64,000 bases of DNA from Alphaproteobacteria bacterium (GTDB lineage: Bacteria > Pseudomonadota > Alphaproteobacteria > Micropepsales > Micropepsaceae), in contig CANJLC010000003.1 in NCBI GenBank assembly GCA_947475445.1, positions 62,001 to 126,000 on the forward strand, given 5' to 3'. The position numbers were made by a program, and so were the translations under genes. Below, one piece after another: positions 43,455 to 46,863 of this stretch; the first letter of the stretch is position 1; every line of letters begins with the position of its first letter. The notes under the pieces are model-generated. The model saw nothing but the letters and a program-made list of their open reading frames with translations. It did no database searches and had not been told where the DNA came from.

Positions 43455-44042
43455 CCGATGGGCAGCGCCCTGCAATATTACAGAAAGTCGCTCAGCGATT
43501 TTCGCCATGAAGCGTTTCTTGTCCCCGATCCCGCCCGCGTGGCGGAATATCGCGCCCTGCTGGACAAGATGCCGGGCAAGAAAGTGGGCATCTGCTGGCG
43601 CTCGATGATGCTGGGGGCCAAGCGGGCGAAATATTACAGCCCGGTGGATGCCTGGGGCCCGATCCTGAAAATACCCGACGTCACCTTCGTCAATCTGCAA
43701 TATGGCGATTGCGCCGGCGAGCTGGCGCGCATGCAGGAAAAATTTGGCGTGCGCGTCCAAACCATTCCCGGCCTGGACCTGCGCGACGACATTGACGGTG
43801 CGGCGGCCCTGTCCGCGGCGCTCGACCTGGTGATTTCCGCCCCCACAGCGGCGGCCGCAACCGCGGCCAGCGTCGGCGCGCCGGTCTGGTTCCTCACCGC
43901 CGGCCGCACCTGGCCGCAATTGGGCACCGATGAATTTCCCTGGTATGCGAAGACGAAAGTCTTTTCGCCGGAGAAATTTGGTGACTGGGCCAGCCTGATG
44001 CCGCAAGCCGGCAAGGCATTGGAAGCCTTCGCCTCGGCCTAA
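43455..44042 (+). pseudogene. TPR-type glycosyltransferase, C-terminal half only
   Basis: About 195 codons matching the C-terminal glycosyltransferase lobe of TPR/flagellin-type transferases: PMGSALQYYRKSLSDF, FLVPDPARVAEYRALL, KKVGICWRSM, PILKIPDVTFVNLQYGDC, and LDLVISAPTAAAATAASVGA plus PVWFLTAGRTWPQLGTDEFP. The TPR region and first lobe are missing; upstream of about 43,455 homology stops. A TTG at 43,434 could start a 202-residue product but lacks an RBS. Read as a remnant; a short functional form cannot be excluded. Confidence 0.7.
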
Positions 44043-44377
44043 TCTTCGCCGATTTTTTCGTCGTAAAGGGCGAAGATAAAGGGGCGGCCACGCGACTTGG
44101 CCTCCCAGCCATGCTCCATGGCCAAACGGATATCGGCAATCAGGCTTTCCGGCGCCGCGCGGGTGCGTTCCAGAACCCGCGCCAGATTCTGGTTCTTGTC
44201 GAACGGATATTCCAGAACCAGTTCGCGGTGGGCCTTGCCGTCAAACATCACGGTCAGGCGAAGTCCCACATCACCATCGGCGGTGCCCTTTTGCGGCTCG
44301 CTGCGCACAACCCAGCGCAGCGGCACATCGTCAATGACGATGGAGCCGCCACTGGTTTTTTTGCGCTGCTTGCTCAC
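44039..44377 (-). CDS. conserved hypothetical protein
   Basis: 112 residues, basic Lys/Arg N-terminus (SKQRKKTSGG), then an alpha/beta stretch (VIDDVPLRWVVRSEPQ; GLRLTVMFDGKAHRELVLEY; LARVLERTRAAPESLIADIR). GTG start at 44377 immediately follows the stop of the chimeric ORF, so it probably relies on coupling. Family not recognised. Confidence 0.6.
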   Translation of the reverse strand: MSKQRKKTSGGSIVIDDVPLRWVVRSEPQKGTADGDVGLRLTVMFDGKAHRELVLEYPFDKNQNLARVLERTRAAPESLIADIRLAMEHGWEAKSRGRPFIFALYDEKIGED

Positions 44378-44959
44378 CTATTGCTGCTGCTGTTGTTGCT
44401 GCTGGTGGTGATAAAGCCGCTCCGGCATGGAATGGGTGGCTGGCGAGGTCATGGGCCGGGCCACCTTGAGAAAATCCTCATGGCGCACCGGCGCCTGGGT
44501 CGGCTCAATGCCCACGGAAATGGAAAGTTCGCTTTCCGCCATGCCCTTGTAGGTGCCCCGGGTCGGCGGCACGTCGGAATAGTCGCGCCCCACGGCGGCA
44601 CGGACATGGCGCTCGCCCGCCTGGATATTGTTGGTGGGATCAAAGCCCAACCAGCCCAGCGACGGAAAATAGGTTTCCACCCAGGCATGGGTGGCGTCTG
44701 CGCCGGACCGGTCCTTGTTGCCGCGCTGGTGCAGGAAGCTCTGCTCGCAGGCCTGCTGGCGGCGATTGAGTTCTTCCAGCGGCAAGGTGGCGATGCGGCT
44801 GTCGAGCGCGCCATAGGGGGCGAACATCTCGTCATAGGCCTTGCCCAGCACGTAATTCTGGTAGGGCTCGTCCTGCCCGGCGCGCGAAGGGCGGTGCGGC
44901 GGGGTGGCCGTATCGGCGCCGCCGAAATCTTCGATATTGGCAAAAGCCTCATGCTGCAT
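44378..44959 (-). pseudogene. in-frame chimera: ATP-grasp N-terminus fused to transglutaminase C-terminus
   Basis: 193 residues. Residues 1-80 match the N-terminus of circularly permuted ATP-grasp proteins (YDEMFAPYGALDSRIATLPL, EELNRRQQACEQSFLHQRG). Residues 84-170 match the C-terminus of bacterial transglutaminase-like proteins (SGADATHAWVETYFPSLGWL, FDPTNN, HVRAAVGRDYSDVPPTRGTY). In many genomes the order is ATP-grasp, alpha-E, transglutaminase, so a deletion from the first gene into the last, in frame, would give this. Transglutaminase His and Asp remain but the catalytic Cys part is gone. It ends in eight Gln after two His, from a CAG/CAA run. An RBS-bearing product could be made, but catalytic function is unlikely. 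Confidence 0.8.
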
Positions 44960-45035
44960 GCGCGAAGTGTGACGGCAGCTAGGCTTTCCCGCAAGCGCCC
45001 TGATTCGGCCTGCAATCTGTAGTTGCAAAAAGGCT

Positions 45036-45728
45036 TCAGTCCAGCAACTTGAGCAGGGCGGACTGATTGGGCTTTGACGCCACCAGCACCTGCCGGAAGC
45101 CCAGCGGCATCAATGCCGCAGCCGTGGCCGCGCTGATGCAGGCTGCGATGACCCCGTCCAGGGCCAGGCCCTCTTCCTTCAGGGCGCAATCGGCAAAGAC
45201 CTGGGCGCTGCGGGGAGAATAGAACAGGGCGGCGTCGATATCCCCAAGGCGGAGCGCCGCCACCGTTTGCGCCGGCAAGGCATCCACGGCCGTCACGGCA
45301 TAAAGAATTTCCTGGCGCAAGGTGAAGCCTTCCAGCGCCTGCATCAATTTTCCGTCATTGCCCTCGCCCGCCACATGCAAAAGCGCGCCCTTGTCCTTTT
45401 CCGCCCAGCGCGAAGCCGCCTTGGCCAAGTCCTGGGCATCACCATCGGCGCTTTTGACAATTTCAAAGCCGGCGCTTTGGGCCTGCGATGCGGTCTGGGG
45501 GCCGACGGCGAAAAGCGGCACGTCGCGTCTTTTGGTACGCCGCACCAGGGCGCGCACGCCATTGGCGCTGGTGGCCAATATCGCCTGCACGCCGTCCAGA
45601 GAAACCTCGGGGCCGTCCAGCATTTTCGTCGTCAGCAAAGGCGCCAGCAAAGCCTGGTGGCCGCGCGATTCCAGCTGGCGGGCGGTTTCCTCGCCGTCTT
45701 CGATCGGCCTTGTTACAAGGATCTTCAT
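45036..45728 (-). CDS. hemD: uroporphyrinogen-III synthase
   Basis: Cyclises hydroxymethylbilane to uroporphyrinogen III in haem synthesis. 230 residues, low identity typical of HemD: ILVTRPIEDGEETARQLESR, AILATSANGVRAL, FAVGPQTASQAQSAGF, ALLHVAGEGN, ALFYSPRSAQVFAD (conserved Tyr-Ser) and ACISAATAAAL. hemC, which usually precedes hemD and is divergent from tsaD, is absent: tsaD starts 65 nt away. Confidence 0.9.
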   Translation of the reverse strand: MKILVTRPIEDGEETARQLESRGHQALLAPLLTTKMLDGPEVSLDGVQAILATSANGVRALVRRTKRRDVPLFAVGPQTASQAQSAGFEIVKSADGDAQDLAKAASRWAEKDKGALLHVAGEGNDGKLMQALEGFTLRQEILYAVTAVDALPAQTVAALRLGDIDAALFYSPRSAQVFADCALKEEGLALDGVIAACISAATAAALMPLGFRQVLVASKPNQSALLKLLD

Positions 45729-45792
45729 CTGTCTTTCGCGGGCCGCTTATCTGCGTTAGAGGAACGAGCGTGTTTAGCGGAAGAACGCAGCT

Positions 45793-46863
45793 TTGGACAG
45801 TTTTACCGTGCTCGGCCTGGAGACAAGCTGCGATGAAACCGCGGCCGCCCTGGTGCGCGGCAGCGTTCCGGGCCCGGGCGAAATATTGGCCAATATCGTC
45901 TTCAGCCAGAATGAGGCGCATGCGCCCTATGGCGGCGTGGTGCCGGAAATCGCGTCGCGCGCCCATCTGGAAATACTGGATGGCGTGATCGACCAGGCTT
46001 TGAAACAGGCGGATTTGGCGCTGGAGGATGTCGACGCCATCGCCGCCACGGCGGGCCCCGGATTGATCGGCGGCGTGATGGTGGGGCTGACCACTGCCAA
46101 GGCGCTGGCGCTGGCGATGGACAAGCCACTTATCGCCGTCAATCACCTGGCCGGCCATGCCTTGACGGTGCGGCTGACCGATGGCGTGGCGTTTCCCTAT
46201 CTGCTGCTGCTGGTGTCCGGCGGCCATTGCCAATTGCTGGCGGTGGAGAACGCAGAGAAATTCCGCCTCTATGGCAGCACGCTGGATGACGCCGCCGGCG
46301 AAGCCTTCGACAAAAGCGCGAAGTTGCTGGGCCTGGCCTATCCCGGCGGACCGAATGTCGAAATCGCCGCGGCAAAAGGCAACGCAAAGCGCTATGCCCT
46401 GCCCCGGCCCTTGCTGGGCCGCAGCGGCGCAGATTTTTCTTTTTCCGGCTTGAAGACCGCCTTGCGCCAATTGGTGCAGGGGGGCGACATAAACGGCAAT
46501 GACGCGGCGGCGTCTTTCCAGGCGGCGGTCATTGATATTCTTTGCGACCGCACCAAAAATGCGCTGGCGATGTTCCGGCGCGATTTTCCCGCGGTGACCT
46601 CACCTTGCCTTGTGGTGGCTGGCGGCGTTGCCGCCAATGTCGCTATCGGCTCAGCTTTGACGGTGCTGGCTGAAAATAATGATTTCAATATTCGCATCCC
46701 GCCCGCCCGGCTTTGCACCGACAATGCGGCGATGATCGCCTGGGCGGGACTTGAACGTCATGCGGCTGGCGCCTGCGATCCTATCGGGATCGGGCCAAGA
46801 GCCCGCTGGCCGCTGGATCCTTCAGACCGTGGCCAAGGTGACCAGCGCCAGGACACCGCTTAG
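45793..46863 (+). CDS. tsaD: tRNA N6-threonylcarbamoyladenosine synthase catalytic subunit
   Basis: Transfers threonylcarbamoyl to A37 of ANN-decoding tRNAs. 356 residues: [15 protein letters not shown], metal-binding His in [44 protein letters not shown] and [15 protein letters not shown] start 45793 (no closer ATG fits). The C-terminal residues after about 335 ([12 protein letters not shown] onward) are divergent and lie over the antisense small gene at 46,822. Confidence 0.96.

Follow-up and report, generated by a model that had tools for sequence, protein, structure and literature searches.

The analysed stretch of DNA, hereafter the window, comprises 64,000 nucleotides of a draft genome (G000), and on its minus strand hemD, a chimeric open reading frame and the uncharacterised gene hyp112 follow one another in this order (Table 1). 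The chimeric ORF is free of internal stops and ends in a run of eight glutamines. The tsaD-like gene served as a marker for both locus and tree.

Table 1. Positions in the window of the chimeric ORF, its parts and the neighbouring genes
Feature	Position	Strand	Remarks
hyp112, uncharacterised	44039..44377	-	112 aa; GTG start directly after the TAG stop of the chimera
Chimeric ORF	44378..44959	-	193 aa, ATG start, open frame; stop codon 44378-44380
Tail, last transglutaminase-like codons	44378..44722	-	ATHAW (His), DPTN (Asp), Gln-rich end; catalytic Cys absent
Joint, codons 78-79 (CAGCGC; Q78-R79)	44723..44728	-	ATP-grasp and transglutaminase alignments overlap here
Head, first codons of circularly permuted ATP-grasp gene	44729..44959	-	Chimera residues 1-77
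hemD (Pfam HEM4)	45036..45728	-	Lies upstream of the chimera and, in relatives, of the intact operon
tsaD-like gene	45793..46863	+	Marker for locus and tree

An initial annotation read this ORF as the start of an ATP-grasp gene joined in frame to the end of a transglutaminase gene, and tblastn with proteins of the nearest relative used as reference (G009) bears this out. Residues 1-85 of the G009 ATP-grasp protein matched the window with 77.6% identity (E = 9e-36) in a stretch that includes a deletion of seven codons, and chimera residues 1-78 are an ATP-grasp start with 85% identity to G009. Residues 204-321 of the G009 transglutaminase matched with 91.5% identity (E = 8e-73). The deleted 21 nt lie after residue 46 of the head, were lost in phase and are present in the other 18 genomes aligned. 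Compared as DNA, the head aligns with G009 to about 48 bases before the start codon of the chimera, and the joint CAGCGC has the G009 counterparts CAGGGC in the ATP-grasp gene and CATCGC in the transglutaminase gene. The tail accordingly begins about five residues before the start given to it in the initial annotation, which had identified both head and tail correctly. Between the two pieces 2,834 nt are missing relative to G009, within the 2.5-3 kb that had been proposed, and with them the alpha-E gene, the entire Pfam ATP-grasp domain and the transglutaminase Cys.

The chimera gave no hit above cut-off in Pfam or NCBIfam. Its residues 85-108 are the last piece of Transglut_core (PF01841) and score 18.1 bits, below the cut-off of 23, compared with 83.1 bits for the intact G009 transglutaminase. 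Membership in the circularly permuted ATP-grasp families (PF14403/PF04174) was likewise not found by Pfam; what is kept of ATP-grasp stops near parent residue 85, and the domain occupies residues 108-482 of the G009 parent. The ATHAW His and the DPTN Asp of the tail are present, and the loss of the catalytic Cys is seen in the alignment with 3isr, where GVCQDFAH of the G009 transglutaminase (Cys at residue 180) aligns with GVCRDFAH and has no counterpart in the chimera; the assignment of the Cys-His-Asp triad is taken from this alignment and from the general background on transglutaminases. Both parents resemble solved structures, the ATP-grasp protein matching 3n6x, annotated as glutathionylspermidine synthase, over residues 37-504 (E = 2e-170) and the transglutaminase matching the transglutaminase-like 3isr over residues 107-260 (E = 4e-15), and the chimera itself gave nothing better than E = 0.05 against solved structures. 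Its predicted structure had a pLDDT of 35, and an intact transglutaminase control with a similarly shallow alignment had 38, so that the low value carries no weight either way. ORFs of this chimeric kind are easily annotated as hypothetical or as transglutaminase unless the neighbourhood is compared.

The gene order ATP-grasp, alpha-E, transglutaminase, which the initial annotation gave as known for many bacteria, was found at this very locus, between hemD and hyp112, in seven relatives of the same genus at the DNA level (G009, G042, G036, G052, G016, G108 and G107). In G009 the three proteins have 506, 315 and 321 residues, with the transglutaminase start taken at MFYSIRH, and match CP_ATPgrasp_2 (PF14403), Alpha-E (PF04168) and Bact_transglu_N (PF08379) with Transglut_core, respectively, all above cut-off. 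The chimera of the window sits in the same place, with hemD and the tsaD-like gene on one side and hyp112 on the other in G000 as in the seven intact relatives. The three-gene operon itself was not found in G000, where a profile search of the genome at E = 0.001 matched neither PF04168 nor PF14403; a second related cluster of G009, on contig C151, is missing from G000 by the same search.

A four-gene order of ATP-grasp, alpha-E, transglutaminase and Anbu is described in passages of PMC5666114 and PMC6376114, and in the latter the hypotheses on the role of that operon are said to have no experimental confirmation. An ATP-grasp protein of Y. bercovieri is there described to release orthophosphate from ATP (PMC6376114). 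Compared with the operon as these passages present it, the intact relatives have the same order of the first three genes but differ in that all seven loci lack an adjacent Anbu and carry hyp112 instead, and the window keeps only the two outer ends. PF00227 (proteasome/HslV/Anbu) had no match in 10 of the 14 genomes searched, including G000 and G009; it was matched in the other four, never at the operon locus, and in 10 of 14 control genomes.

The head was matched in 41 of the 69 genomes of the genus set, most of the close relatives being metagenome drafts, some of which appear from their isolate names to come from fresh water. Essentially full-length PF14403 was in place in 34 of these carriers, two (G014 and G048) were cut by contig ends, and five were collapsed (G000, G006, G015, G025 and G045). 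The G025 chimera joins ATP-grasp residues 1-154 to transglutaminase residues 187-321 in an open frame of 297 aa, and retains 54 CP_ATPgrasp_2 profile positions and part of Transglut_core. In G045 residues 1-177 are joined to 256-320 in an open frame of 254 aa with 70 CP_ATPgrasp_2 profile positions. G015 holds a pseudogene of ATP-grasp 1-211 and transglutaminase 252-318 with in-frame stops and its parts in different frames, and G006 a scrap of ATP-grasp 1-33 and a short piece with the Gln end, also in different frames. The catalytic Cys is kept in none of the collapsed loci. The locus was viewed in three of the 28 genomes without a head match: in G060, a genome of 1.8 Mb, operon and hyp112 are gone and a GT-like gene lies about 170 nt after hemD (L159, 5382-5555), in G051 no operon match occurs in the 2.5 kb of contig past hemD, and in G040 the contig ends inside hemD. 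The drafts G036 (L042) and G015 (L058) are titled 'Rhizobium sp. Q54', others only Alphaproteobacteria, possibly a mislabel.

A pattern-based scan of the genome contigs gave 56 loci, 22 of them with head and tail on one strand, and in 19 of these the two are spaced by 2.8-3.2 kb. In the remaining three they lie less than 400 nt apart, each with a different joint. None of the 228 matching plasmid records covered 80% of the query. A conserved chimeric family, the reading that the same architecture in many genomes would have favoured, was rejected on these results, and the chimera is neither unique nor a protein family.

A tree of 24 genomes, based on the tsaD-like protein together with one of 850 aa which we take to be leucyl-tRNA synthetase, showed collapsed and intact genomes interleaved. 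G045 and G006 group together (100%) and then with G008 (100%), in which ATP-grasp and alpha-E matches are full length, and G015 groups with the intact G036 and G042 (100%). G000 groups with the intact G009 at 69% with 16 syntenic proteins in 8 genomes and at 56% in the 24-genome tree, and alternative orders of G000, G009 and G025 were kept by the AU test (p = 0.27 for G000 with G025, and 0.25). The placement of G060 was weak and varied, being with G052 in the 24-genome tree (39%) and with G045 and G108 in the 16-protein tree (77%). The best tree thus gives at least five losses (G000, G025, G045/G006, G015 and G060), assuming vertical descent in place, or four if G000 and G025 share one. The retained pieces are nested, those of G000 within those of G025 and those of G006 within those of G045. 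The best tree separates the losses, and a single ancestral collapse was rejected, with the reservation that a sister relationship of G000 and G025 would allow these two a common collapse.

The collapsed genomes are small. Their completeness-corrected sizes are 2.20, 2.21, 2.22, 2.24 and 2.50 Mb, and the smallest of the other 36 carriers has 2.55 Mb, with a median of 3.88 Mb; the difference in these rounded sizes gave p = 1.8e-4 in the Mann-Whitney test, which is without correction for kinship. Deletion-fused gene remnants occur in shrinking bacterial genomes, and the present loci are like them in the loss in place, the graded remnants and the small genomes. What sets them apart is the joining of an operon's first gene to its last in an open frame, in several relatives and at differing joints.

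Words shared by the two outer genes mostly stand in the same codon phase. For words common to the ATP-grasp and transglutaminase genes of six intact operons (L034-L038 and L126), the in-phase share was 63-71% at 6 nt and 74-91% at 8 nt, and for 21 pairs of seven other genes of the window it was 59% and 69%, respectively. Shuffling of G009 gave in-phase shares of 33-35% when bases were shuffled, 53-59% within codon positions and 60-68% when whole codons were shuffled. Because shared words are mostly in phase, a short-homology deletion between two such genes will usually be in frame. The collapse is parallel and the in-frame join is favoured by shared codons and is not a one-in-three accident, both of which go beyond the initial annotation. 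An argument for selection from the frame counts, three clean in-frame joints beside no clean joint out of frame being 1 in 27 at odds of one in three, was dropped, as the phase bias puts about two thirds in phase; G015 was left out of this count since a 1-nt length difference from its relatives beside the joint makes the phase of the joint ambiguous.

The joints themselves point moderately to deletions that may have used short homology. At the G025 joint 6 nt are shared in the letters of G009, which is the case for 0.6% of random in-frame joints. The alignments overlap by six columns at the G000 joint and by 7-9 columns at that of G045, with mismatches, as read against diverged relatives in which exact microhomology is unreadable. 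Among 20 listed families (of 21) of longer direct repeats in the intact G009 operon, none links the joint sites of G000 or of G025.

The start of hyp112 follows the chimera stop in G000 with 0 nt between them; relative to the preceding stop it lies at -4 in G009, G025, G107 and G016, at -1 in G017 and at +3 in G014. Of the 34 loci examined, 21 had a hyp112 match and 13 had none, and in seven of the 21 the start either overlaps the stop before it or lies no more than 3 nt away. The gap is 42 nt in G015 and about 110 nt in G045, and also about 110 nt in G006, a value taken from locus alignments for a genome outside the 34-locus set. The gene hyp112 had no Pfam or NCBIfam match and is under purifying selection with an omega of 0.15 in 13 genomes. 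A promoter scan of positions 43900-45800 found none, which is uninformative with only 0.4 expected in shuffles. In all 30 non-collapsed loci of the 34 examined, four or more of the last seven codons encode Gln, as they do in the chimeras of G000, G025 and G045 but not in the G015 pseudogene. The eight-glutamine tail seen in the initial annotation is therefore an old trait of the intact transglutaminase family and not a product of the joint.

Selection on the chimeras was examined by codon models with 17 and 12 genomes, respectively. The omega of the tip branch was 0.095/0.094 for G000, 0.095/0.087 for G025 and 0.065/0.064 for G045 against a background of about 0.09, none of the three being significantly different from it. 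The tip of the G015 pseudogene had 0.179/0.185 (2dL 7.3 and 7.2), that is some relaxation. The intact control tips G052 (0.108) and G008 (0.07) did not differ from background, and G009 (0.002, 2dL 7.4) and G042 (0.028, 2dL 10.3) were significantly lower. Single-branch omegas are accordingly noisy, two of the four intact controls departing as strongly as the pseudogene, though downwards. With G000 and G025 set as sisters the G000 omega was 0.105, and when the G000 chimera was taken apart the head had 0.15 and the tail 0.056, neither significant. The 95% upper limits, interpolated from profiles, are about 0.18 (G000), 0.14 (G025) and 0.12 (G045), which, if each branch is taken to combine constrained with neutral time, allow a neutral share of the tip branch of at most about 10%, 5% and 3%, respectively. 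In these tests the last 8 codon columns (the Gln run) were dropped, stop codons were treated as missing, 27 G000 tail columns up to the joint were left out, G012 and G107 were without tail, and G018 and G037 were aligned but left out. Open-frame remnants must be young or selected because old neutral ones gain stops. Either collapse was recent or selection on the ORFs persists, and the omegas do not decide which.

An artefact of assembly or binning that joined the two ends of an intact operon is very hard to credit. The draft genome has 29 contigs, but the joint lies inside a contig of 222,573 bases, no alpha-E or ATP-grasp family match occurs elsewhere in the genome, the missing seven codons of the head are a separate change, and the separately deposited drafts G025 (L040), G045 (L057) and G015 (L058) are collapsed alike with other joints. 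Only slightly easier to accept, and still quite improbable, is a working protein whose pieces were kept for binding, for instance to some partner that the lost enzymes had. In its favour, omega is not raised on the three chimera tips and is raised on the pseudogene; the noise of single-branch omegas, two intact controls departing downwards, weakens this point, and the profile searches gave nothing above cut-off. The chimeras moreover keep differing pieces, G045 having only transglutaminase 256-320 and G000 only ATP-grasp 1-85, which leaves no more than some 85 residues of the head and 65 of the tail shared between them.

That the ORF serves as a translated lead-in is unlikely, though less so than a working protein: the frame would be selected because hyp112 starts at the chimera stop, which ribosomes would have to reach by translating the remnant (translational coupling), and because polarity between hemD and hyp112 would be avoided. 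The abutting or overlapping starts in a third of the loci with hyp112 and the constraint on hyp112 itself speak for it, and both chimeras so arranged (G000 and G025) are clean, and two of the three collapsed loci without this arrangement, G015 and G006, are broken. The third, G045, is however a clean in-frame chimera despite its gap to hyp112, and the G060 locus is without a hyp112 match as well. The phase bias explains the frames without selection, and coupling would select an open frame and not the low rate of amino-acid replacement observed. Protein-level selection on in-frame chimeras in at least two lineages, whether as lead-ins of hyp112 or as small proteins, is on the whole doubtful. 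If it were true, new short genes would arise from operon erosion, their frame fixed in advance by the codon phase in which short-homology deletions occur.

The ORF is best regarded, with fairly good confidence, as an erosion relic of a dispensable operon that was lost in parallel through short-homology deletions, and it is probably non-functional as a gene. The ancestral order at this locus would have been hemD, ATP-grasp, alpha-E, transglutaminase and hyp112. In this lineage about 2.8 kb would have been deleted, probably through a few bases common to both sites; alpha-E would have gone completely, the ATP-grasp gene for the most part and the transglutaminase gene over its first two thirds. 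Seven more codons are missing from the head. The enzymes are gone, with no Pfam ATP-grasp domain, alpha-E or transglutaminase Cys left, and other members of the genus with small genomes have likewise lost this dispensable operon. No selection is needed for the open frame, as codon use places about two thirds of the short words common to two genes in phase. Against this reading as a relic stand the three chimera tips without relaxed selection, all of which must be recent if they are neutral, and the loss in phase of the seven codons of the G000 head.

One locus in one genus, alphaproteobacterial by its record titles, thus displays several stages of loss, from the intact operon through open-frame chimera and pseudogene to a clean gap. 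The literature search found no work recognisably about this locus or the phase bias, which does not prove that none exists. An open frame by itself is poor evidence of function, and shrinking genomes should commonly leave in-frame chimeras behind.
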